Shown in pieces: positions 9,197-39,102 of a stretch of DNA of 43,495 bases (the stretch's first letter is position 1; the number at the start of each line of letters is the position of its first letter). The stretch lies in NCBI GenBank assembly GCA_016201865.1, contig JACQCA010000037.1, positions 1 through 43,495 on the forward strand, in the 5' to 3' direction. Both the position numbers and the translations under genes were made by a program. Origin of the DNA: Nitrospirota bacterium (GTDB lineage: Bacteria; Nitrospirota; Nitrospiria; JACQBZ01). The notes under the pieces are model-generated. The model had not been told where the DNA came from. It searched no databases and saw only the letters and a list, made by a program, of their open reading frames with translations.

Positions 9197-9892
9197 CTAC
9201 TCTTTTTGAAAACGAAGAATATCGAAATAGCTCTCGGCCGTTGATTGCGTATCGTCCGAATCAATCATGAGCGTCACGCCGCCGACCTGCGGGGGCTCCT
9301 CGCCGAACAGTTCACGGTAGTCCTCAAGAACATTTCGCCTCTCTTGGACCCATGAACCCAGCGGATCGGTTCCATCGCGGAGGACGATGTATCGCGTGTT
9401 CGAGGATTTCGTGCTGGTGACATGGAGATTCTTGGGGGTGAGGTTCTCCCAGATGTACCCGACCAGACGTGTGTTCACGGCCGACGGAAATCTCGGGAAG
9501 AGCACATAAACCTGCGCCGCCTGATCGTCCGTTGTCTTGTTCCGCACATCCCCGCCGTTCGGAAGGACCGTCGCCCTCCATCGCCAGGTCAGGTAAGGGT
9601 AGTCGTGAATGTCGAAATCCAGTTTCTTGTAGAGACCGAAACTGTTTTGTTTGGAGATCAGGTGGAGGACGGGTTTGCCGTCGTTGTTTTCGATCCGTAT
9701 GTCGCGGCCGCCGCCGAACCATTGCTTGAGATCCCACCCGACCGGCAGGCCGTTCGCGCCGAGCCCGCCGCCGGCCGGATCGACGATCAGAGAAGACGGC
9801 CCGGCCGTGGAAAATTCGGCGCGAAGCATTCCCAGGATCAGCAGGACGGCCAGCAGGAGGGCTGAGAAGTATATAAGCCGGTCAAATCGCAC
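9197..9892 (-). CDS. DUF3047 domain protein, exported
   Basis: A 231-residue protein with an N-terminal membrane/signal segment (LIYFSALLLAVLLILGML) and a DUF3047 body: LPVGWDLKQWFGG, KPVLHLISKQNSFGLYKKLDF, YPYLTWRWRATVLPNGGD, DDQAAQVYVLFPRF and the closing VGGVTLMIDSDDTQSTAESYFDILRF. The family is a beta-sandwich of unknown function resembling carbohydrate-binding modules, usually periplasmic. The start is a GTG at 9892, placed where the signal segment begins. A TGATATAAT extended -10 lies only 6 nt upstream of it, suggesting a leaderless transcript (see findings). Confidence 0.87.
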   Translation of the reverse strand: MRFDRLIYFSALLLAVLLILGMLRAEFSTAGPSSLIVDPAGGGLGANGLPVGWDLKQWFGGGRDIRIENNDGKPVLHLISKQNSFGLYKKLDFDIHDYPYLTWRWRATVLPNGGDVRNKTTDDQAAQVYVLFPRFPSAVNTRLVGYIWENLTPKNLHVTSTKSSNTRYIVLRDGTDPLGSWVQERRNVLEDYRELFGEEPPQVGGVTLMIDSDDTQSTAESYFDILRFQKE

Positions 9893-9898
9893 CCTGAA

Positions 9899-9907
9899 AT
9901 TATATCA
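9899..9907 (-). promoter_or_regulatory. Extended -10 promoter of the DUF3047 gene
   Basis: TGATATAAT reads on the minus strand, with TG at 9906-9907 and TATAAT at 9899-9904. No good -35 is present, as expected for extended -10 promoters. The predicted transcription start is at or within a base or two of the GTG at 9892. Confidence 0.55.
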
Positions 9908-9929
9908 TAGTCCGGCGACAAGAAAATAC

Positions 9930-9958
9930 TTGATAAATCACGCCGATTCCTGTACAAG
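9930..9958 (+). promoter_or_regulatory. Possible promoter for the MinD-like operon
   Basis: TTGATA (9930-9935), a 17-bp spacer and TACAAG (9953-9958) give a moderate sigma-70 match upstream of the ATG at 9996. It sits in the 103-bp divergent region shared with the DUF3047 gene, in the opposite direction. Confidence 0.4.
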
Positions 9959-9995
9959 TATACGTGATGCAAGGGAGCCAATCATCACTCTAAAT

Positions 9996-10961
9996 ATGCG
10001 GCTTGGGGATCCGGCGAATCCATCCCGAAACGAGATCTGGGCCGTCGGCGGCGGCAAGGGCGGCACGGGCAAAAGCTTCCTGTCCGCCAACTTGGGGATC
10101 GCGCTTTCCCATCGAGGGAAACGTGTCCTTTTGATCGATGCCGACCTCGGCTGCGCCAATCTCCACACCTGCCTCGGTATCGATTACCCGGAAGCGACGC
10201 TGTCCGATCTTCTCAAAGGCCGCATCAAGCGGATCGAGCAGGCCATCGTCCCGACCGGGATTCCCAATGTCGGCCTCATCAGCGGCGCGCAGGATATCCT
10301 GGAGGTGGCCAACCCCAAGCACGCGCAGAAAGAGCGCCTCCTCCGGCAGATTCAGGGACTGGACATCGAATACATCATCCTGGACCTGGGGGCCGGCACA
10401 TCCTTCAATATCCTGGACTTCTTCCTCATCGCGGATCAGGGGATCCTCGCGGTTCTGCCCGAGCCGACCTCGATCGAAAACGTCTATCGCTTTATTAAGA
10501 GCGTTTTCTACCGTCGGTTCCGGAAGGTGGCCAAGGAGGACGCCGTGAAGGAGATGATCGCGTTGGCGATGGATCAGAAAAACGAATTCGGGATCAAGAC
10601 GCCGTACGATCTGATCGAACAGGTGGCGCGGATGGATCCGGGGGTCGGGGAGCAATTGAAAAAGGAGATGTACAGTCTCCGGCCGAAGTTGGTGGTCAAT
10701 CAAGTCCGATCCAAGGACGACATCACGCTCGGTTTTTCGATGCGGAGCTCCTGCGCCAAATATTTCGGGATCACCGTGGAATACGTGGGTTACGTGGAAC
10801 ACGACGACCATGTCTGGCAGGCCACGAAACGCCGACGACCGTTGCTGACCGAGTACCCGGCGTCCAACGCGGCCCGCGGCATTGAAAAAGTCGCTGCCCA
10901 TCTTGCGGATCACGAACAACTGACGATCGACTATCTCGTTGGCACGGCCCTTCGGCGATGA
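9996..10961 (+). CDS. MinD/FlhG-like deviant-Walker ATPase
   Basis: A 321-residue P-loop ATPase of the SIMIBI/ParA-MinD class. The deviant Walker A is GGGKGGTGKSFLSANLG at about residues 18-34, with the signature lysine two residues before GTGKS. It is followed by LLIDADLGCANLHTCLGI (switch I) and LDLGAGTSFNILDFFLIAD (switch II/Walker B region). The region VLPEPTSIENVYRFIKSVFYRRF is typical of FlhG/MinD-like proteins that act on motility or polarity machines. The C-terminal part (about 175-320) is longer than MinD, and no MinD-like amphipathic membrane helix is obvious. No min or flagellar genes are nearby. The gene overlaps the J-domain/HTH gene by 4 nt (ATGA), so the products are probably made together. 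The start at 9996 is the only plausible one; a GGGAG lies too far upstream to be a clear ribosome site. Confidence 0.9.
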   Translation: MRLGDPANPSRNEIWAVGGGKGGTGKSFLSANLGIALSHRGKRVLLIDADLGCANLHTCLGIDYPEATLSDLLKGRIKRIEQAIVPTGIPNVGLISGAQDILEVANPKHAQKERLLRQIQGLDIEYIILDLGAGTSFNILDFFLIADQGILAVLPEPTSIENVYRFIKSVFYRRFRKVAKEDAVKEMIALAMDQKNEFGIKTPYDLIEQVARMDPGVGEQLKKEMYSLRPKLVVNQVRSKDDITLGFSMRSSCAKYFGITVEYVGYVEHDDHVWQATKRRRPLLTEYPASNAARGIEKVAAHLADHEQLTIDYLVGTALRR

Positions 10962-11578
10962 AGCCTCCCCGCGAGCAAAACTTCTACGAGATCTTCGAGA
11001 TCCCGGCGACGGCGACGCGCGAACAGATTGAGCAGGCATACGAGTTGGCAAAAAAAACCTACGGGGACGCCTCGTTGGCGGCCTATTCGTTGTTCGATCT
11101 GGAAGAACGGAAGGAGATCGTCCGGAAAATCCACCTAGCTTACGAAACGCTTTCGGATGAAAATCGAAGGAAACAGTACGACCGGGAAATCATGAAATTA
11201 GACATTCAGGAAACGCTGCCCCCGTCAGGGTCCGCAGCGATGCAAACAACGAGGGGCGTCGATCGGCCCGATTCTTCGGGAGAAAAGCCTCCGAAGTCCG
11301 AGCCTGTGCCGATCGTGATCGAGTCGCTTACCGGAAGCGAACTCCGACGGATCCGGGAAAGCCGGGGAATTCCGCTTCAGGAGATTGCGAATAAGACAAG
11401 AATCAATATCACGTATTTGGAGTTCTTGGAAAAAAACAAGTACGGTTCCCTCCCGCCACCGGTTTACCTTCGCAGTTATGTCCTCCAATACGCGCGGATG
11501 CTTGGACTTGATCCCATCCCGTTGGCCGATCGGATTTTATCCCTGGTCGAGCAGGCAAAGAAGTCGGATCAACAATAG
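10958..11578 (+). CDS. J-domain-like / RodZ-type HTH fusion protein
   Basis: A 206-residue soluble protein with two recognisable parts. Residues about 7-78 follow a DnaJ J-domain (NFYEIFEIPATATREQIEQAY, then IHLAYETLSDENRRKQYDRE), but the HPD tripeptide that triggers DnaK is absent: the expected site reads KKTYGDASL. Residues about 125-205 match the HTH_25 helix-turn-helix of RodZ and cytoskeleton-linked proteins (GSELRRIRESRGIPLQEIA, TRINITYLEFLEKNKYGSLP, VYLRSYVLQYARMLGLDP). Unlike RodZ it has no membrane helix and the HTH is C-terminal. The linker (80-120) is polar and Pro/Ser-rich. Overlap with the ATPase gene suggests a physical partnership, perhaps as adaptor between the MinD-like ATPase and DNA or a cytoskeletal/envelope target. 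That role is inference. Confidence 0.85.
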   Translation: MKPPREQNFYEIFEIPATATREQIEQAYELAKKTYGDASLAAYSLFDLEERKEIVRKIHLAYETLSDENRRKQYDREIMKLDIQETLPPSGSAAMQTTRGVDRPDSSGEKPPKSEPVPIVIESLTGSELRRIRESRGIPLQEIANKTRINITYLEFLEKNKYGSLPPPVYLRSYVLQYARMLGLDPIPLADRILSLVEQAKKSDQQ

Positions 11579-11621
11579 GGTTCGAGTTTGGGTGAAACGT
11601 TTAAGCAGGAGGTAGAGGCCT

Positions 11622-11792
11622 GTGAATGGAACGGAACGATCGGATGACCTTTATGTTAAATTCAGTCGTTGCGACCAATGCGGCCGGAAACTCTGGAAGG
11701 GGTATTTCCTGATGGTTCCGGATGAAATCCAATCCATGCGGATCACGATCGTCTGCTGGCGGTGCAAATTATTTGGGAAAAAGAACTCGTAG
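11622..11792 (+). CDS. Small zinc-ribbon protein (56 aa)
   Basis: A short gene starting with GTG at 11622, preceded by a strong AGGAGGT (11607-11613) 8 nt away. The product has two CxxC knuckles, SRCDQCGRKLW near residue 17 and IVCWRCKLFGKK near residue 46, separated by about 25 residues, as in a zinc ribbon. The ribosome site, the spacing and the reading of the two knuckles in one frame support a real gene. It is the third gene of the MinD-like operon, 43 bp after the J/HTH gene. Function is unknown; RNA, DNA or protein binding are all possible. Its stop codon abuts a perfect palindrome shared with the end of bioA. Confidence 0.8.
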   Translation: MNGTERSDDLYVKFSRCDQCGRKLWKGYFLMVPDEIQSMRITIVCWRCKLFGKKNS

Positions 11793-11812
11793 GGGCGCAG
11801 CATGCTGCGCCC
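11793..11812. terminator. 20-bp perfect palindrome between convergent genes
   Basis: A self-complementary sequence (GGGCGCAGCA followed by its complement) lies exactly between the zinc-ribbon stop codon (ends 11792) and the bioA stop (starts 11813). It could end transcription from both sides, although neither side has a clear T-run. The flanks GTAGG and CTTAC resemble those of small palindromic repeat elements, and a similar unit is at 37761-37778. Confidence 0.5.
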
Positions 11813-13189
11813 TTACACTTCCGTCACAGCCCGGATGGATTCGCCCAGGATCGAGGCCATCTTTTTCAGTTGGGGGATCGTAACGGACAACGGCGGGATC
11901 AGCGGGACGACGTTTCCGAGCGGCCGGATGATCATCCCGCGCTTTAAAGCCTCTCGAGCCGCCCGATAGCCCATCCGCGCTTCCAACGGATACGGTTCTT
12001 TTGTAACCCGGTCCCTCACCAGCTCGACGGCCGCGATCAGGCCGATCTGGCGAATTTCACCGACATGAGAATAATCCTTCAGCGGTTTTAAGAATCGGAT
12101 CATGGCCTCGATCTTCGGTCGGAGTTTTTCCAGCACATTTTCCTTCTCAAAGATCTCAAGATTGGCCAGGGCCGCGGCGCAGCCGAGTTGATTTCCGGTA
12201 TAACTGTGGCCGTGGAAGAAGGTCTTAAATTCCCGGTATTCGCCTAAGAAGGCCTCATAAATCTCCTGCGTCGCTAAGGTCGCGGCCAGTGGAAGATACC
12301 CGCCGGTCAGACCCTTCGCCACCGCCATTAAGTCCGGCGACACCCCTTCATGCTCACAGGCAAACATCGTCCCGGTCCGGCCGAAACCGGTAAAGACCTC
12401 GTCGGCGATCAACAGAACGCCGTAGCGTGAGGCGAGGTCCCGGATCCGTCTTAAATAGCCCGACGGCCAGGTCAGCATTCCGGCCGCGCCCTGAATCATC
12501 GGTTCCACCACGACCGCGGCAATCCCATCATGATGCCGGGTTAAAACCTTTTCGACCTCCTCGGCGCAGGCCAGGCGGCATTCCGGGTAGGTTTTGTTTA
12601 AAAAGCAACGGTAACAATAAGGCGCTCCGACTTTGTGGGTCGGAAAGCGAAGCGGAGCGTAACAATCATGAAACAGTTCGATGCCGCCCAGGCTGACCGA
12701 GCCGATCGTGTCCCCGTGATAGGCGTTCACCAGCGATACAAATTTTGTTTTTCTGGATTTCCCGCGATGGCGCCAGTACTGAAAGGCGATCTTCAGCGCC
12801 GCCTCCATGGCGGTCGAGCCGTTGTCCGAGAAGAAGACCTTGGCCAGTCCCGGCGGGGCCGCCCGGATCAGTTTTTTCGCAAGCCGGACGGCCGGAATAT
12901 TCGCAAGGCCCAGGAGCGTGGAGTGGGCGATCCGGTTGATCTGGTCTTTCACGGCGCGGTCCAACGCGGCCTTCCGATGCCCGTGCAGATTCACCCAGAC
13001 GGATGAGACGCCGTCGAGATACCGCTTCCCGTGAATGTCGTAAAGATAGACCCCCTTGCCGCGGTCGATGATCAGCGGCCTCTCCTTCTCCCACTCGGCC
13101 ATCTGCGTAAAGGGATGCCAGATGAACTGTCTCGCGTCCTCTTCCATGCGTCGGAGGGCGGCAGGATCTTTCGGAGGCTTTTGTCCCAT
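11813..13189 (-). CDS. bioA: Adenosylmethionine-8-amino-7-oxononanoate aminotransferase
   Basis: A 458-residue PLP-dependent class III aminotransferase that converts 7-keto-8-aminopelargonate to 7,8-diaminopelargonate in biotin synthesis. Characteristic BioA segments are IWHPFTQMAEW near the N-terminus (substrate pocket), DGVSSVWVNLHGH, SDNGSTAMEAALKIAFQYW, NAYHGDTIGSVSLGG, LIADEVFTGFGRTGTMFACEH and the PLP lysine in MAVAKGLTGGYLPLAATL. A start at 13189 is adopted; a second Met at 13147 gives a shorter N-terminus that also fits BioA. It is separated from the bioF-SDR-bioD operon by two plus-strand genes and has its own promoter, whose -10 lies 8 nt before the start codon. Confidence 0.95.
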   Translation of the reverse strand: MGQKPPKDPAALRRMEEDARQFIWHPFTQMAEWEKERPLIIDRGKGVYLYDIHGKRYLDGVSSVWVNLHGHRKAALDRAVKDQINRIAHSTLLGLANIPAVRLAKKLIRAAPPGLAKVFFSDNGSTAMEAALKIAFQYWRHRGKSRKTKFVSLVNAYHGDTIGSVSLGGIELFHDCYAPLRFPTHKVGAPYCYRCFLNKTYPECRLACAEEVEKVLTRHHDGIAAVVVEPMIQGAAGMLTWPSGYLRRIRDLASRYGVLLIADEVFTGFGRTGTMFACEHEGVSPDLMAVAKGLTGGYLPLAATLATQEIYEAFLGEYREFKTFFHGHSYTGNQLGCAAALANLEIFEKENVLEKLRPKIEAMIRFLKPLKDYSHVGEIRQIGLIAAVELVRDRVTKEPYPLEARMGYRAAREALKRGMIIRPLGNVVPLIPPLSVTIPQLKKMASILGESIRAVTEV

Positions 13190-13197
13190 GATCCGGC

Positions 13198-13226
13198 ATT
13201 ATACTTCATGCATCTTGACCAGTAAA
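13198..13226 (-). promoter_or_regulatory. Promoter of bioA
   Basis: On the minus strand TTTACT (13221-13226), 17 bp and a perfect TATAAT (13198-13203) precede the bioA ATG at 13189. Transcription would start at about 13191, leaving at most a few leader bases and no Shine-Dalgarno. Confidence 0.6.
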
Positions 13227-13261
13227 GGCGGTAAAATCCGATTCGGTCGAGCGGCTTTTCC

Positions 13262-13290
13262 TTGACAAAACAGCATCGGTTCCCTATACT
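13262..13290 (+). promoter_or_regulatory. Promoter of the DUF3553 gene
   Basis: TTGACA (13262-13267), a 17-bp spacer and TATACT (13285-13290) form a near-consensus sigma-70 promoter. It argues that translation starts at the ATG at 13348 and not at the TTG at 13291, which lies at or upstream of the transcription start. Confidence 0.75.
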
Positions 13291-13347
13291 TTGAGCGTTT
13301 TTCAGAAGGACCTTCTCAAAAAACGGACGGCGCGGCCGGAATGTTTC

Positions 13348-13584
13348 ATGCAAAGACTTTTCTTAAGATTGAGGGATCAGGTGATCCACCTCCGATACCC
13401 GCAGTGGGGAGTCGGGGTGGTGGTCGAACAGCGTTCCTCCACGGCGTCGGGCGGGATCTGCATCGCGCGCGTCGCCTTTCGAGATGGTGTCGAGCGGTCG
13501 TTCATCAATGATCTTGATAATTACAATTGCTGTTATTATACCGGGGTACGACTCCAGGAAGACTCAAAATCCATTCATCGCTGA
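13348..13584 (+). CDS. DUF3553-like small protein
   Basis: A 78-residue protein resembling DUF3553: RLRDQVIHLRYPQWGVGVVVE, then ICIARVAFRDGVERSFIND and a C-terminal YNCCYYTGVRL. The family is a small SH3/Tudor-like beta barrel of unknown function that also occurs as a domain at the end of UvrD/PcrA-type helicases and near CarD-like proteins. The start at 13348 is chosen because a strong promoter ends at 13290 and because the family-like region begins right after this Met; the upstream TTG frame would add 19 unlike residues. It sits 63 bp before the HD-GYP gene in the same direction and may be co-transcribed with it. Confidence 0.7.
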   Translation: MQRLFLRLRDQVIHLRYPQWGVGVVVEQRSSTASGGICIARVAFRDGVERSFINDLDNYNCCYYTGVRLQEDSKSIHR

Positions 13585-13647
13585 TCATCCGAATGTTCGA
13601 TCCTTCAGGCTCGGACCGGAGCGGACCGGTCGAGAAAAGGGGGGAGC

Positions 13648-15126
13648 ATGACGGATGAAACCATCCTCATCGTCGATGATGAAGAGCACATCCGGCGGTT
13701 GTGCTCCGAAATCCTTCAACGCAAATCCTACCAAACCGTTGCCGTCGCCGGCGCCCAAGAGGCCATCGAGATCGCCCGATCGCAACCGTTTGATCTTCTC
13801 CTGACCGATATCAGCATGCCCGGGATGGACGGACTTGAACTGCTTCGGGCGATGAAAGAAATCCAGAAAGAGATTGCGGTCGTCATTATCACGGGTTACG
13901 GAACGATGGATAACGCCGTCCAGGCCCTGCAGTTAGGCGCGCAGGGGTTCGTCATCAAGCCGTTCTCTCAACAGGAGTTGCTCCAAGCGGTCGAGGACGC
14001 CCTCGAAAAGCACCGCCTTTTCCGTGAGAACCTGCGCCTGAAGTTGCTGGTGCCGCTTTTTGAGGTGGGCCGGACCTTGCTCTCGGAACTGAATCTTCAT
14101 TCCCTTTTGGAGAACTTCACGCGGGTCGTTATAAAAGAAACCCGATCGGACACGGCCGCCGTGATGTTGGTGGACGAGCGCACCCGGGTGTTGCAGGTCG
14201 AGTCCCCGTTCGTGTCCTCCGTCGAATTTCCGGGCGGTGTCTGGCGGCGGATCAAGGAGACCGTCGGCCGATGGGTCTTGGAAAGGAAAACGCCTCTGGT
14301 CCTGGTAAGGCCGAGTCCCTTGGCGAATGAACTGAGGTTCCTTCTCGAAGAAGCCGATCTTTCGGCCTTGGTGGCGATGCCTTTTGTGTCCAAAGATCGA
14401 ATCATTGGCGTTTTGATCCTGTGCAAAAGAACCGGCAACGTATCCTACAACCAGAGCGATCTGGAGCTGACCTCAATCCTGTGCGGGCAGGCGACGATTG
14501 CCATCGAAAATGCCAAGTTGTTCGAGGTCGTTGAGGCAAAGAACCGGGAACTGGAAGAATTTTATTTTGATACCGTCAACGCCTTGGCTCAGGCCATTGA
14601 GGTCAAGGACGTTTACACCGGCGGCCACGGCGATCGGCTGGTGGATCTGGCGATCGCCATTGCGGAGCGACTCGGGGTGCCGCCGGCGGAAAAGACCTGG
14701 CTGAAGTACGCGGCCGCTCTGCATGATATCGGAAAGATCGGCGTGAAGGAAACGATTCTGACCAAACCCGGAAAACTCACACCGGAAGAATACGATGAAA
14801 TGAAGACGCATCCGGCCAAAGGGGCCGAGATCCTGAAAGAGGTGAAATTTCTGGCCCCGGTCGTTCCCATCGTCTACCACCACCAGGAACGATACGACGG
14901 ACGAGGATATCCGGACGGGTTGTCGGGTGATCAGATTCCGATCGGTTCGAGGATCGTGGCCGTTTTAGACGCCTTCGATGCCATGACCACCAACCGGCCC
15001 TACCGAAAGAAACTTCCCTTTGAGACGGCCGTCAACGAACTTCGCCGGCATTCAGGGGTTCAGTTCGATCCCGAGGTGGTGGAGGCCTTCATTCAGGTGG
15101 TCGCCGAGACCTCGTACACGGCCTAA
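13648..15126 (+). CDS. Response regulator with GAF and HD-GYP domains (c-di-GMP phosphodiesterase)
   Basis: A 492-residue, three-domain regulator. The receiver domain (about 5-120) has acidic pair Asp10-Asp11, phospho-acceptor Asp54 in LLTDISMPGMDG, and the switch lysine in FVIKPFSQQ. A GAF domain (about 145-295) follows, containing SALVAMPFVSKDRIIGVLIL and ending TSILCGQATIAIENAKLF. The HD-GYP domain (about 315-485) has HGDRL, ALHDIGKIGV, HPAKGAEILK, YHHQERYDGRGYPDGLSG and DAFDAMTTNRPYRK, so all metal-binding and GYP residues are present and it should hydrolyse c-di-GMP. A strong GGGGGGAG ribosome site precedes the ATG. No histidine kinase is adjacent. The last 75 nt overlap bioD on the opposite strand. 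Confidence 0.94.
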   Translation: MTDETILIVDDEEHIRRLCSEILQRKSYQTVAVAGAQEAIEIARSQPFDLLLTDISMPGMDGLELLRAMKEIQKEIAVVIITGYGTMDNAVQALQLGAQGFVIKPFSQQELLQAVEDALEKHRLFRENLRLKLLVPLFEVGRTLLSELNLHSLLENFTRVVIKETRSDTAAVMLVDERTRVLQVESPFVSSVEFPGGVWRRIKETVGRWVLERKTPLVLVRPSPLANELRFLLEEADLSALVAMPFVSKDRIIGVLILCKRTGNVSYNQSDLELTSILCGQATIAIENAKLFEVVEAKNRELEEFYFDTVNALAQAIEVKDVYTGGHGDRLVDLAIAIAERLGVPPAEKTWLKYAAALHDIGKIGVKETILTKPGKLTPEEYDEMKTHPAKGAEILKEVKFLAPVVPIVYHHQERYDGRGYPDGLSGDQIPIGSRIVAVLDAFDAMTTNRPYRKKLPFETAVNELRRHSGVQFDPEVVEAFIQVVAETSYTA

Positions 15127-17906: not shown

Positions 17907-20900
17907 CTATGGCATCTTTGTCGAGCCGACCGGCGGCAGTTTGATCGCCCCCAGAATCCCGGTGGGGATACGAACGACCTCCGGTTGTGGAGAACGGATA
18001 TCGTATGCTCCCATCTCGACCCATAAGGATCGATTGATTAGGGCCGGGATGCGCAGTAGCCTATCCAAATCTATCTTCGCCGCCGAGCTGTAGGGAGCCT
18101 TGTTCTCCACAGGGGACCCCGGTCTCAGATGCCAGTTCAGTCCCGGGGGATTCACAAAGAGCGGATTCACATCGATGTTTTTCACACCGCTTGAATAACC
18201 TCCCGTGATATCGTTGTACTGGACGAAGGTAAAACTCTCCGAATTGTTCGCGCTCTGATATTCGGCCTGCTTGGCCGGATTGTCGACATGCAGGTTATCC
18301 GGGGTCCACCGGTAATGGATTCCCCAGGTGTAATCTTTATCCTCTTCTTTCAGATTCCGATGCTTGGGCTGATCGTACTGCAGTCGGTAATTCCCCTGGA
18401 TGATGTTGTTATAGATCTTTGGATCACTGTATCCCGGTGTCTTGGTTAAGTACTCGTGGCCGTTACGCTCACTGTCGATGCCGCCGCCGGCCGGAGTATA
18501 GCTTCCGGCGACGATGTTGCCGACGATTGTATTGTTGTAGACCGCCGCATAGAAGGTATCGTCAAAGGAAAGCGCCCCGCCTCGCGCTACATTTTCCCCG
18601 TGGTCATCGGCGATGTTTTCCGCAAACAGGTTGTTGTAAATTCCGATGACGGAGATGTAATCTCCCACATCTTCAAAGCTGATCGCGCCGCCGTCATCGC
18701 CCGCGTAATTGCGAAGGAAGACGTTGCCGTTGATATCGGCCGGCCCCGTATCCTCGAGGAACATTCCGCCGCCATGATCATCCGAACGGTTTTCAAGAAG
18801 CATATTCCCAAAGACGTTCAGCTTGTCTTTGATCTCATACAGGCTGATTCCACCGCCATAGTCCGGCGAGTAATTGTGGAAGATGAGATTATTAAAGATA
18901 TTGTATTCACCGGGAGGAGGTCCGGGGTTGCTGTCGTCCAGTGTGTGATCCGGCTCATGGTCCGCGACCCCGTATCCGGGCTCGTCATTCACACTGATCC
19001 CGCCGCCATAGCCGCCGGTGTTCCCGTTCTCGGCAATGGTATTCGACCAGATCGATACCGTATGGTTGGACTTATGCAGCCAGATGCCCCCCCCATAGTA
19101 ACCGCCGTTGCGTGTGATGATGCAGTTATTGATATCGACCATTTGATTGCCGTAGTCGCCGAAGATTCCGGCCCCGATCTCGTCTTTGATCGTCCCTCCT
19201 CGAATGGTGAAGCCGCTGATCGCAACATTACGCACGCTGCCGGTCATCCCCCCTCGGCCGATAAAGATGACGGGTCCGCCGTCGACTTTGATGCTCGAGT
19301 AGGATGGTCGGCCGTCGATGATTGTTTCCTGTGGACCGGCGCCGATGATATTGACGTCGGATTCCTTGATCCGGATCCTTTCAGGATAGGTCCCCGGTTT
19401 TACAAAGACATAGCGCGGCGTTGAAGCCGGCAGGTGATTGAGCGCTTCCGTGATGGTTTTATAGGGGCTGCTCATACTGCCGTTTCCGCCGGAGGCTGCG
19501 CCCGCATCCACGAAGACCGACCGTGCATTCATATAGCCGGCCTGTATCGAATTATATACAATACGGATCGGCAGCGCATTCGAGATCCCGGTGGATGTCG
19601 CCACGATGATGGAACCGCTGATGGCCTTGAGGGGAATAAACACATCAATCCGGGTGTCGCTCCAATACGTCACAAGGAGTCTCTGCCCGCTCAGTGTTGC
19701 GGTCGAATAACCCTGGCGATCTCCAAAATTGCTCCCGGTGACATGGAAAATACTGCCCGGTGAAACGGTTGTGGTCGAGAGCATCACGACTCTCAGATCG
19801 ACTCGCGCGGGATCGGCGTTCGGGATGGTTATCGGACCCCCGTCATTCAGCGTCAAAGAGGCAGCATTATTGAACGCCAACACCGGAAGCGTGCTGGACT
19901 TAAAGCGATCCGACTTATTGCGCATCCAAGGATATTGATCGCTCAAAATCAGCTTGGCGAAATTGTTGATTGCAAAAGGAGCGGCATCATTCACCGCCAC
20001 GCCCCCGCCGATGACCGGAGCATTGAGGGGTTGGATATTTCCTCCGCCTCCCTGAGCGCCGGCTAAGTCGGTGAAGCAAAGAGGCAGAAGCGACCAGTCG
20101 GCCTCAAATTTATTTCCGCCCTGGGCAAATTCATAGTTCATATCCAGAGGCGCATAGCAGGGATTATAGCCGGGCAGCGTGGGATCATTTCCGCGGTAGA
20201 TATGAACGCCCGGCGCTGTTCGGACCTCCACCTCCGGTTTCTGCCCCAGCGGCCCACCACCCGGGCATACCGTTGAACCCTCATAGCATAGCGGATTGCC
20301 CATCCAGCCTGCGCCCAGGAAGTAACCGAGATGGTCGTAAATGCCGACCGGAACGCCGGGCACACCGGCTTTTTCTTGAAAAAGAAGGCTTAAGGGCTCT
20401 TCGTCGAGGTTGATGTCGTCAAAGACTCCGCCTTCGACCTCACCGGCGAGGGGCGCCAGCGTATTGAGCCCGACATTGTGATCATTCCGCGCGCCGTCGG
20501 CAACCGTAACGACCGCCAAGTCCGAACCGGCGGGTGAGGCCGAGAAACCGGCCGGCGGGATCACCTTCACCATGTAATCACCGGGGGCCAACCCGCGAAA
20601 TTCATAATAACCTGGCACCGGGCCTTTTATCACACGGCCGAACTCATCCAGATTACACAGCACGAAGCCGTAGGCCGGATTAAACGCTGCATTACATGTG
20701 TAAGGTTTGATCCATCCCTGCGCCAAGGCGTCCGCCTCGCTGAACTGCCCGGTTGTCGTGGTGACGAGCAGCGTCGTTCCCGTGGCGTCATACAATTCAA
20801 CCGTGGCGCCATGGATCGTCCTTTCTTCATCCGGCTCGTAGACGCCGTTGCCGGTCCAACCGAGCGCGGGCTCGAGATGGTCGTAGTACACCATGCCGGC

Positions 20901-22376
20901 GATGTCGCCGCCGCCCGCCGGAATGGCTTCAAGCGTGAGGTCTGCGCGGTAGTTCATGGTGAACCATAAAATATCCCGGCTCATCAGGTTGAAGGCTTTT
21001 CCGGGGAGCGTCGCGTCGATGGGCTCGATCAAGCCGTGATAGCCCGGCGGCAGTGTGACATCCAGATGCCCCGTGATCTCGACCTCTTCAAGCGTGTCGA
21101 AGTTGTACCAGCCAGTGGTATCCGTTGTCGTTTCCTTCCAGATGCTCCCGCTCTCAAGGCGCAGGTTTACCTTGGCGCCTGAAATCGGATTCCCCGCCGT
21201 ATCCATCACATGCCCATTCGCGCGGCCGTAGAAACGCGGGACAAAGATATCCAGACCGGTCACGGGCGTGTTCGGCGTAACCGACACCTCTTGCTGTACA
21301 TAGACATAGTTGAGCGGGACGTCCACCGCATGGATCTTGTACCGACCCGGCGGGACATTGTCAAACTGAAAATTTCCACTGGGATCCGCCTCGGCCGTCG
21401 CCACCGGACGAACCGGCGTGTTCTCGCCATTGGTGAAGAGGATGGCCAGTCCATTGGGCACATAGTCGTTAGGCGTGACACCCGGAGGAAGATTGGTGAG
21501 GGGTTCGTCCACAAACCAGTTCCCATCCGCATCCTTGAGCGCGCCGGTAATGGAGGTCGAGTCTGTTGTTGGGCTTGCGATCTGTCCCAATTTTGAGACA
21601 TACCCGAACCAAACACGATAAAGACCGGCTTCGGTGCCGGGATCGCCCGGGTAAAGCACGGTCTCCCAGCAGTGACTTCCTTCTTCTGTGGTTGTGAGAT
21701 ACCAACCGGTGGTGGTGCTGGGCGAAGTGGACGGATCGGCGCAAACCTTCACCTCCCCTGATGGAAGTCCGGTAAAGTAATACAGCCCGTTCGCATCCGG
21801 TCCGGCAAGGGGAGGCAGCGTTGGACTGGCGCCGCTTATGCCTGTGGCCAGTTGATTACCCTTTTCATCATAGACCGTAAAGGTGACGCCTGCGAGGCCC
21901 GGGTCATCCGGAAAATCATCTTCGCCGTTAACATAGTTATCTTGAAATGCATAAACGAGAAGATTTGCCAGAGGTAAAGGCAGTGGGGGAAGATAGGCAT
22001 CCTTCATGACATTGCCGCCAATGACCTCGAATTCACGGCTGGTCGCGTCATGTCCGGGAGCGCTGAACATAACCAGATATTTTCCGGGAGACGGCACGGT
22101 TGCCGACCATGTATTGCCTGAAACCGTCCCATAGGCAACAAAGCCGCCTCCACCATCCTGGACCATGACATGGGCGTCCGACAATGGGACGGCCGTAGTC
22201 GTGTTCGGGGTTCCATCCGGATTTTGGGAGCCGGAGAAGATGCCTCCGCCAATTGTGGCTGTAGCGGCATGCGCCTTAGTGACAGCGATTCCGCTCCACG
22301 AGACAGCATAAATGTTTATCGTTCCAATCACAATCATCATGCTGAAAATTCGGAGGAGGATCTTTCCCGTTTTCAT
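17907..22376 (-). CDS. Giant secreted multidomain protein: CnaB/SdrD-like repeats, TIG domain, right-handed beta-helix
   Basis: A 1489-residue exported protein. The start at 22376 is preceded by AAAGGGG at a good distance and begins a signal peptide (MKTGKILLRIFSMMIVIGT, ending near AHAATA); an ATG 13 codons earlier is weaker. Residues about 40-800 hold several carboxypeptidase-regulatory/SdrD-B-like beta-sandwich modules, seen as recurring YYFTGLPSGEVKV, FQFDNVPPGRYKIHAV, YYEFRGLAPGDYMVKVIPP. Residues about 855-940 form an IPT/TIG domain (VSPGSIFHVTGSNFGD). From about 949 a pectate-lyase-like parallel beta-helix begins (SVFVDAGAASGGNG, YVFVKPGTYPERI) with many GGGI/GGAI turn repeats. No LPXTG, PEP-CTERM or autotransporter barrel is visible, so the export route and anchor are unknown. 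Plausible roles are adhesion or glycan binding/cleavage at the surface. Confidence 0.88.
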   Translation of the reverse strand: MKTGKILLRIFSMMIVIGTINIYAVSWSGIAVTKAHAATATIGGGIFSGSQNPDGTPNTTTAVPLSDAHVMVQDGGGGFVAYGTVSGNTWSATVPSPGKYLVMFSAPGHDATSREFEVIGGNVMKDAYLPPLPLPLANLLVYAFQDNYVNGEDDFPDDPGLAGVTFTVYDEKGNQLATGISGASPTLPPLAGPDANGLYYFTGLPSGEVKVCADPSTSPSTTTGWYLTTTEEGSHCWETVLYPGDPGTEAGLYRVWFGYVSKLGQIASPTTDSTSITGALKDADGNWFVDEPLTNLPPGVTPNDYVPNGLAILFTNGENTPVRPVATAEADPSGNFQFDNVPPGRYKIHAVDVPLNYVYVQQEVSVTPNTPVTGLDIFVPRFYGRANGHVMDTAGNPISGAKVNLRLESGSIWKETTTDTTGWYNFDTLEEVEITGHLDVTLPPGYHGLIEPIDATLPGKAFNLMSRDILWFTMNYRADLTLEAIPAGGGDIAGMVYYDHLEPALGWTGNGVYEPDEERTIHGATVELYDATGTTLLVTTTTGQFSEADALAQGWIKPYTCNAAFNPAYGFVLCNLDEFGRVIKGPVPGYYEFRGLAPGDYMVKVIPPAGFSASPAGSDLAVVTVADGARNDHNVGLNTLAPLAGEVEGGVFDDINLDEEPLSLLFQEKAGVPGVPVGIYDHLGYFLGAGWMGNPLCYEGSTVCPGGGPLGQKPEVEVRTAPGVHIYRGNDPTLPGYNPCYAPLDMNYEFAQGGNKFEADWSLLPLCFTDLAGAQGGGGNIQPLNAPVIGGGVAVNDAAPFAINNFAKLILSDQYPWMRNKSDRFKSSTLPVLAFNNAASLTLNDGGPITIPNADPARVDLRVVMLSTTTVSPGSIFHVTGSNFGDRQGYSTATLSGQRLLVTYWSDTRIDVFIPLKAISGSIIVATSTGISNALPIRIVYNSIQAGYMNARSVFVDAGAASGGNGSMSSPYKTITEALNHLPASTPRYVFVKPGTYPERIRIKESDVNIIGAGPQETIIDGRPSYSSIKVDGGPVIFIGRGGMTGSVRNVAISGFTIRGGTIKDEIGAGIFGDYGNQMVDINNCIITRNGGYYGGGIWLHKSNHTVSIWSNTIAENGNTGGYGGGISVNDEPGYGVADHEPDHTLDDSNPGPPPGEYNIFNNLIFHNYSPDYGGGISLYEIKDKLNVFGNMLLENRSDDHGGGMFLEDTGPADINGNVFLRNYAGDDGGAISFEDVGDYISVIGIYNNLFAENIADDHGENVARGGALSFDDTFYAAVYNNTIVGNIVAGSYTPAGGGIDSERNGHEYLTKTPGYSDPKIYNNIIQGNYRLQYDQPKHRNLKEEDKDYTWGIHYRWTPDNLHVDNPAKQAEYQSANNSESFTFVQYNDITGGYSSGVKNIDVNPLFVNPPGLNWHLRPGSPVENKAPYSSAAKIDLDRLLRIPALINRSLWVEMGAYDIRSPQPEVVRIPTGILGAIKLPPVGSTKMP

Positions 22377-22636
22377 GTTTGCCCCTTTCGATTCATTGTT
22401 TTTGACGATAGACAATTCGTTAGACGCCGGTAGAGCTGACCTTCACGACGAAATCCCTCGGCACCGAAAAATAAGATCGATAAAAGTAGGCTGTAAATTA
22501 ACTTAAAAGAACAGAGAAAACAATTCTGCAGAGGATTTAGTCCGAATGGATTAGTCCATAAAGGGGGTGAGGGGAGGCGGCGGCAAGGTGTAAATCCCTT
22601 AAGAAAGATATTTGGAGAAGGAAGAGCCCATTGAAC
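22377..22636 (-). promoter_or_regulatory. Upstream region of the giant secreted protein gene with a repeated GGATT(T)AGTCC motif
   Basis: This 260-bp gap has no gene. Two near-identical imperfect palindromes, GGATTTAGTCC (22533-22543) and GGATTAGTCC (22548-22557), lie about 160 bp upstream of the start codon with a 15-bp period, i.e. about one and a half helical turns. They look like an operator for a dimeric regulator; the LuxR-type protein encoded next door is the obvious candidate. I see no confident -35/-10 pair for the minus-strand gene in this region. Confidence 0.4.
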
Positions 22637-37985: not shown

Positions 37986-38489
37986 ATGTTGAAGTATATG
38001 CACGGGAAAAAGGGTTTCACACTGATCGAGCTGATGATCGTGGTGGCGATCATCGGTATCTTGGCGGCCATCGCGATTCCACAGTACATCAAGTACGTGA
38101 AGCGGAGCCGCAGCGCGAATGCGGTGCAGCATGTCGGGGATGTCTGCAAAACGCTCTTGGACTGGAGAGACAATCCGAACATGGGTGACGGGACCTTGCC
38201 GACGGATACAGCCCAGACCGATGCGTCGGGTAAAGCCTATTCGGTTCACTTCCCATCCGAGTCCGGCTACGTGACTACCGGCGATCCGTATTATGCATAC
38301 ACCTGGACTGCGACCGGTCTTGTGACGGCGACGGGGAAAAACGGAGGAACGGCCGACACAAAGGTCCAGTTCTCTATCGTTGCCATGACGGCGGGTACGG
38401 CCGATGTTCCGACTGCGGCCGGCGGGAGTAGCGGAACGGCAATGGCCGGCTGCGCAAGCCAGTCGATGGCGGCCAGCAGCCTCTACTAA
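37986..38489 (+). CDS. pilA: Type IV major pilin
   Basis: A 167-residue type IVa pilin. A short leader ending GKKG is cut by the prepilin peptidase before [20 protein letters not shown], with Glu5 of the mature protein present. The conserved N-terminal helix continues [20 protein letters not shown]. The globular head has Cys in DVCKTLLDW and a second Cys near the C-terminus (AGCASQS), which could close the D-region disulfide. A strong AGGAGGT lies 9 nt before the ATG. The sigma-54 promoter just upstream supports its role as the highly expressed subunit. A strong hairpin follows the gene. Confidence 0.93.
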
Positions 38490-38564
38490 GAGTACGATGG
38501 GTTGCCTTCTTGAAAGAGACAGGAGGGCGTCAGGGCTGTACCACTGTTGGAGGAAAAGGGTAAC

Positions 38565-38605
38565 GATCGTGCGGGAGAGGGCTGATGGTCTGATCCCGCA
38601 CGATC
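38565..38605 (+). terminator. Strong hairpin between first and second pilin genes (terminator/attenuator)
   Basis: GATCGTGCGGGA (38565-38576) and its exact complement (38594-38605) form a 12-bp stem with a 17-nt loop, followed by ATCTTTTG. The T-run is short, so partial termination is expected, letting a fraction of transcripts continue into the second pilin gene. Confidence 0.65.
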
Positions 38606-38622
38606 ATCTTTTGACAAGGCCT

Positions 38623-39102
38623 ATGAAAAACTCAAGCGGTTTTACATTGATCGAGATGATGATCGTGGTCGCAATCATCAGTATCTTAGCGGCCATCGCG
38701 ATTCCTCAATATTTCAAGTACGTGAAACGGAGCCGCAGCGCGTATGCGGTTCAACATGTCGGGTATCTCTGCAAAACGCTCATGGAATGGCGAGAAAATC
38801 CGTACCTCGGCGATGGGGTCTTGCCGACGGATACAACCACGACGGATACGGCCAGTGTGGCCTATTCGGTTCATTTCCCGGCCGAGGCCGTTTTAGCGAC
38901 TTCCGGAGATCCGTATTATAATTACGCCTGGGACTCAAGCGGTCTTGCGACGGCCACGGCTAAGACTCCGGGCCTCGCCCAGTTTGATGTCGTGGTGATG
39001 ACGGCCGGCACTGCCAATGTTGCGGCTGCGGCCGGCGCGGGCAGCGGAACGGCCCTGGCGGATTGCGGCGACCAGTCCATGCATGCGGATGCCCTATATT
39101 AG
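38623..39102 (+). CDS. Type IV pilin, tandem paralogue of the first
   Basis: A 159-residue pilin whose leader is very short (MKNSSG) before FTLIEMMIVVAIISILAAIA. The next part, [20 protein letters not shown], is nearly identical to the first pilin, and the similarity continues through LCKTLMEWRENP and into the C-terminal GTALADCGDQSM. It is clearly a tandem duplicate with a divergent head. The start at 38623 is fixed by the pilin leader; the frame open to 38404 lies inside the previous gene. Only a weak AAGG precedes it, and a hairpin separates it from the first pilin gene, so lower expression is likely. It may be a minor or alternative subunit. Confidence 0.9.
   Translation: MKNSSGFTLIEMMIVVAIISILAAIAIPQYFKYVKRSRSAYAVQHVGYLCKTLMEWRENPYLGDGVLPTDTTTTDTASVAYSVHFPAEAVLATSGDPYYNYAWDSSGLATATAKTPGLAQFDVVVMTAGTANVAAAAGAGSGTALADCGDQSMHADALY

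Follow-up and report, generated by a model that had tools for sequence, protein, structure and literature searches.

What does a MinD/FlhG-like ATPase work on, and with which partner, when its gene is followed in a Nitrospirota genome by those of a J-like/helix-turn-helix (HTH) protein and a small zinc-ribbon-like protein? Positioning of chromosomes, division sites, flagella, chemosensory arrays, and carboxysomes is the work of ParA/MinD-type ATPases, many of which stay orphans because their partners have not been identified. According to the text retrieved of PMC10241942, A/D ATPases bind ATP, dimerize, and bind the nucleoid or the membrane, and a cognate partner stimulates the ATPase and links it to its cargo; the same text calls these partners "extremely diverse" and many of the ATPases "orphans". 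The window analyzed here is the whole stretch of 43,495 nucleotides of contig JACQCA010000037.1 (assembly GCA_016201865.1). The literature searched, which was open-licence papers only, held no published description of the gene pair reported below.

The locus and its conserved core

The locus comprises three co-directional genes on the + strand: the 321-aa MinD/FlhG-like (A/D) ATPase at 9996..10961 (ATG at 9996, stop at 10961), the 206-aa J-like/HTH_25 protein (hereafter J/HTH), the candidate partner of the ATPase, at 10958..11578 (ATG at 10958), and the 56-aa zinc-ribbon-like protein at 11622..11792, with a GTG start and the arrangement CxxC-24-CxxC. The coordinates bear out the spacing reported in the preliminary description: the ATPase stop and the J/HTH start overlap by 4 nt (ATGA), the gap from the J/HTH stop to the GTG of the third gene is 43 nt, and the AGGAGGT ribosome-binding site of that gene lies at 11607..11613 (+ strand), 8 nt before GTG 11622. 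Wherever dS was unsaturated, dN/dS was about 0.07-0.2, indicating purifying selection on all three genes, and all three were kept with their order and spacing in 5 genomes of the window's own family. A simple scan upstream of the ATPase found no promoter-like site, and co-transcription is therefore judged from spacing only.

The three-gene operon first proposed holds in part: within family f1 the order is kept and all three genes are coding, but beyond it only the ATPase and J/HTH form a unit, and we rejected the trio as the unit because the zinc ribbon is not linked outside this family. In the Nitrospirota comparison, the zinc ribbon was found downstream of the pair only in f1. The 56-aa protein matched no Pfam or NCBIfam family; its two CxxC knuckles (C17, C20, C45, and C48) are invariant in 5 relatives. 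Judged from these sequences, it would be a putative zinc binder and a lineage-specific accessory, an add-on to a core of two genes. A related zinc-ribbon copy, unlinked to the pair, occurs in a genome of another family (G002:C2).

Linkage and distribution of the pair

The comparative evidence comes from one phylum, sampled as 246 evenly drawn Nitrospirota genomes. J/HTH was found in 35 of these (36 copies), and the ATPase gene lies directly upstream on the same strand for 35 of the 36 copies; in the last one (G265), both genes are at contig ends and the pair is split. A search at class level agreed with this. At least 16 families carry the pair (f1, f3, f5-f9, f11, f16, f17, f19, f20, f27, f33, f37, and f40), and both the distance between the two genes and their outer neighbors differ between genomes, indicating that the linkage is maintained and is not that of one frozen operon. 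An objection open to the preliminary description was that its genes might rarely co-occur, and for the ATPase and J/HTH this failed, as they co-occur essentially always. Its remark that no min, flagellar, par, or mre gene adjoins the pair was also right, and the ATPase is a stand-alone one with a conserved partner. One genome (G002) has two diverged copies of the pair (C107 and C32). Outside the phylum, plasmids yielded ordinary MinD/FleN only and viral contigs distant ATPases only, and a scan of genome contigs with a single query sequence returned only two close Nitrospirota relatives. Deltaproteobacteria may have similar ATPases.

A tree of 53 Nitrospirota ATPases sharing the layout, 42 of them J/HTH-linked and the window ATPase included, has one branch that separates all 42 linked members with a support of 100/97 (bootstrap/SH-aLRT). 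A defined ATPase clade with a strictly linked candidate partner, spread over these 16 or more families, is a concrete and testable pair. Our preferred reading, to which we give a probability of roughly 55%, is that the protein is an orphan ParA/MinD-type switch ATPase and J/HTH its dedicated partner. Strict linkage, the single ATPase clade, and the invariant catalytic residues argue for it, as does the finding that other ATPase subfamilies have other candidate partners, the pattern that A/D systems show. The loss of HPD, the junction with scpA-scpB in family f20, and C-terminal tails that by eye are unlike those of MinD/FlhG, all described below, are further points in its favor. On the other side, adjacency may mean co-expression without binding. 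Under the dedicated-partner reading, the ATPase would bind ATP, form a sandwich dimer, and bind a surface or client, and J/HTH would be its cognate partner.

The other subfamilies in the tree adjoin PilZ proteins, volactin with a 140-aa protein, or flagellar genes. PilZ-domain genes stand directly beside related ATPases, upstream at L106, L107, and L108 and downstream at L104 and L105, which suggests that the module also exists in a form linked to c-di-GMP. At L109 (G278:C2:43000-62900), positions 9662-12264 of the - strand hold a paralogous MinD-like ATPase, the 140-aa protein, and volactin, an actin-family protein (PF25216, 286 bits); this cluster is possibly an actin-plus-A/D-ATPase module. 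At L111 (G068:C1:243000-262900), positions 9300-14305, the ATPase paralog is from Nitrospira and faces a PilZ gene, confirmed by domain search, and fliS/fliD/flaG/flagellin-like genes.

The ATPase is a distinct relative of FleN and FlhG

The identification of the first gene as a MinD/FlhG-like ATPase is supported by its motifs, by Pfam (CbiA/AAA_31, over cut-off), and by its best PDB matches, which are FleN (5e-29) and FlhG, followed by archaeal MinD (1e-21) and bacterial MinD. It has the features of the A/D superfamily, namely the deviant Walker A with the signature lysine, the switch I D-x-D, and switch II, carried by the segments KGGTGKS, DADLG..N, and LDLGAGTS, which vary little or not at all among 27 relatives. 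The deviant Walker A KGGTGKS occupies residues 21-27 (10056..10076, + strand), and K21, G22, G23, G25, and K26 are invariant in 27 relatives; D48, D50, and D130 are likewise invariant across the 27 aligned ATPase sequences. A fold search with the ATPase model also returned FleN/FlhG first, with poor TM-scores; the models of the two proteins were built from 3-sequence alignments, had mean pLDDT of 44 and 47, and were too poor for docking.

Compared with FleN/MinD, the ATPase has a helical insertion of about 50 residues (residues ~176-226; 10521..10673, + strand; from the alignment to FleN), in which residues 170-248 of the window protein align to FleN residues 172-200. Relative to FleN, the extra residues follow the helix behind switch II and precede the next strand, and the low-confidence model predicts helices at 182-193, 203-213, and 215-227. 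The insertion starts with a conserved basic patch, KSVFYRRFRKV (residues 168-178; 10497..10529, + strand), which may bind DNA or the partner. The net charge of the 15-residue basic segment is about +2 to +7 in J/HTH-linked ATPases and +1 to +5 in the other subfamilies, and the occurrence of the patch, somewhat weaker, in subfamilies that lack J/HTH speaks against the dedicated-partner reading. On inspection only, the C-terminal tails are short and not basic-amphipathic, unlike the tail of MinD/FlhG.

The best PDB matches raise the alternative that this is a true FlhG/FleN regulating flagella, which is already contradicted and which we consider scarcely tenable. The flagellar explanation was rejected on the FliF profile: 28 of the 35 carriers, among them the window genome, have no FliF. 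FlhG/FleN belongs to flagellated bacteria and is encoded with flhF in a flagellar operon, and the neighbors of the pair are non-flagellar. FliF is present in 7/35 carriers versus 146/211 non-carriers (Fisher p = 6e-8 with kinship ignored; the contrast is less sharp when counted by family), and in at least one carrier with flagella, G265, a different MinD-like ATPase is encoded next to flgN-flgK-flgL. The pair is thus independent of flagella. FlhG/FleN activates FlhF through an N-terminal DQAxxLR motif; no motif of this type was present in the aligned N-termini of the ATPases, which, together with the insertion, also argues against a flagellar FlhG. The score against the NCBIfam model minD_bact was 72.9 bits, below its cut-off of 212.9. 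Given this score, the non-flagellar setting, and the separate clade, no characterized MinD or FlhG is an ortholog of the ATPase; such orthology would have undercut the preliminary description.

The candidate partner has a J-like domain that lacks HPD and a RodZ-type HTH

J/HTH combines a J-like domain without HPD (residues 8-75; 10979..11182, + strand; Pfam DnaJ 36.4 bits, over cut-off) with a RodZ-type HTH_25 domain (residues 129-186; 11342..11515, + strand; Pfam HTH_25 72.7 bits). The HPD motif, located between J-domain helices II and III, is needed for DnaK stimulation. In the window protein its usual place is taken by TYGDAS, and it was found in none of the 42 distinct relatives with a J region (a forty-third relative consists of the HTH part only and was left out of this count). 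The expectation that the J-domain recruits chaperones did not survive this result. A module that recruits chaperones, its J domain bringing DnaK to some assembly, is compatible with the Pfam DnaJ score, but with HPD absent from every member that has a J region we consider it very improbable, and a co-chaperone J domain was ruled out by this loss. Having lost HPD, the J-like domain would not activate DnaK; in the dedicated-partner reading, it would instead act as a helical module that docks onto the ATPase or activates it.

The RodZ-type HTH would hold the client, which may be a cytoskeletal or chromosome factor protein, or DNA. The family profile of the HTH matched Thermotoga maritima RodZ from the MreB complex (2wus_R, 6e-12) and CT009 (3e-11), and an aromatic pair is kept in the HTH (VYLRSY), the counterpart of F60/Y64 in E. 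coli RodZ. In RodZ, this type of HTH binds MreB. It could accordingly be imagined that the HTH binds MreB and that the ATPase regulates where the cell wall grows, which the conserved aromatic pair and the presence of MreB in nearly all carriers would fit. However, nearly every genome of the phylum has MreB, with the pair or without it, so that its presence is uninformative; the window genome has a second, RodZ-like HTH_25 gene (C85); and inspection of the 206-aa protein found no transmembrane or hydrophobic stretch. We therefore regard such an elongasome module as quite unlikely. Against the NCBIfam rodZ models, J/HTH scored far under cut-off.

The HTH also underlies the main rival to the dedicated-partner reading, a transcriptional switch of the FleN-FleQ kind, in which the HTH binds DNA and the ATPase modulates it, with no positioning involved. 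The closest solved relatives of the ATPase are FleN, including the FleQ-FleN complex, and related ATPases pair with PilZ proteins, which are of the c-di-GMP type. Nevertheless, HTH_25 is the RodZ type, MreB-binding in RodZ and with the aromatic pair kept here, and J/HTH is without an AAA+ or receiver domain; we judge the switch unlikely. Returning to J/HTH as a dedicated partner, its N-terminus is a point against that reading, as it is unlike the rule for A/D partners given in the retrieved text of PMC10241942: a basic start, MK(K/R), occurs in part of the family only, and there is no long disordered tail.

Candidate clients and the chromosome side

In the window's class the neighbors of the pair are housekeeping genes (bioA, htrA, ispD/F, cysE, and tldD/E), and conserved neighbors were for this reason set aside as a guide to the client. 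The preliminary description had named type IV pili and the polysaccharide machinery as conceivable clients. For type IV pili the case is weak, with only prepilin-like genes in the window and PilT in 242 of the 246 genomes, with or without the pair; of the window proteins scanned, none was a pilus ATPase, a secretin, or PilC. Phylogenetic profiles were uninformative for a type IV pilus or MreB client, both being near-universal. The polysaccharide proposal finds no support, as no polysaccharide gene is a conserved neighbor of the pair. Elsewhere in the window, a prepilin-like protein with a confirmed N_methyl domain is encoded at 38404-39102. The gene at 17907-22415 on the - strand encodes 1502 aa that include SdrD_B and CarboxypepD_reg domains, and its product is probably a large protein of the cell surface or one for adhesion.

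Family f20 offers a more specific association. There scpB and the ATPase gene overlap by exactly 4 nt, which is invariant in the f20 genomes examined and covers at least 8 genera (loci L047, L048, L050-L059, and L086-L090). Where it was read, the operon has the order scpA, a HEAT-repeat protein (recognized by eye), scpB, ATPase, and J/HTH, and its ScpA and ScpB were confirmed by Pfam. The link to scpAB is confined to f20 and may reflect one historical event. Together with the conserved basic patch, and with no basic amphipathic tail to be seen on the ATPase, this operon leads us, on the sequences at hand, to favor slightly the nucleoid or chromosome side over the membrane as the place where the ATPase would act. 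If the association held generally, the pair would be a condensin accessory that works with SMC-ScpAB in nucleoid organization in all carriers, and the invariant overlap and the lack of an obvious membrane tail on the ATPase are consistent with this. Outside f20, however, the neighbors are bioA, htrA/ispDF, tldD/E, and others, and at C19 the window genome encodes a further, ParA-like ATPase, and we hold a general condensin role to be unlikely. Equally doubtful, in our estimate, is the fuller version of the dedicated-partner reading, a new, phylum-wide A/D positioning system in which a J-domain, its chaperone function lost, has been turned into the partner of a MinD-like ATPase and the two act on the chromosome or condensin (ScpAB) and not on flagella, the division site, or plasmids.

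Comparison with known systems

FleN/FlhG (Pseudomonas FleN, 5j1j and 8p53; Geobacillus FlhG, 4rz2) share the A/D fold and motifs with the window ATPase, at about one-third identity over ATPase residues 13-170, and the C-terminal part matches weakly. They differ in that the window ATPase has the insertion of ~50 residues and a non-flagellar context, with most carriers having no flagella, and their partners are FlhF or FleQ, whereas the partner here would be J/HTH. Bacterial and archaeal MinD belong to the same superfamily and have the deviant Walker A, but the window ATPase scores far under minD_bact, has no adjacent min genes, and has no visible basic amphipathic tail. Similar in arrangement are the orphan ParA/MinD-type positioning ATPases (ParC, McdA, and others) of PMC10241942, which, in the text retrieved, likewise have an adjacent, subfamily-specific candidate partner; that text does not name a partner type made of a J-like domain and a RodZ-type HTH.

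For the partner, RodZ shares HTH_25 and the conserved aromatic pair, but J/HTH has no transmembrane or periplasmic part and is fused to a J-like domain. SflA of Vibrio (PMC7226244), compared here by description, is a DnaJ-domain protein with a genetic link to FlhFG and likewise brings together a J-domain and an FlhG-type ATPase; it differs in being a transmembrane TPR/Sel1 protein that is not encoded adjacent to flhG, acts on flagella, and has no HTH. MinD, FlhG, DnaJ, and RodZ are each an easy annotation for one of the two proteins, and each would mislead.
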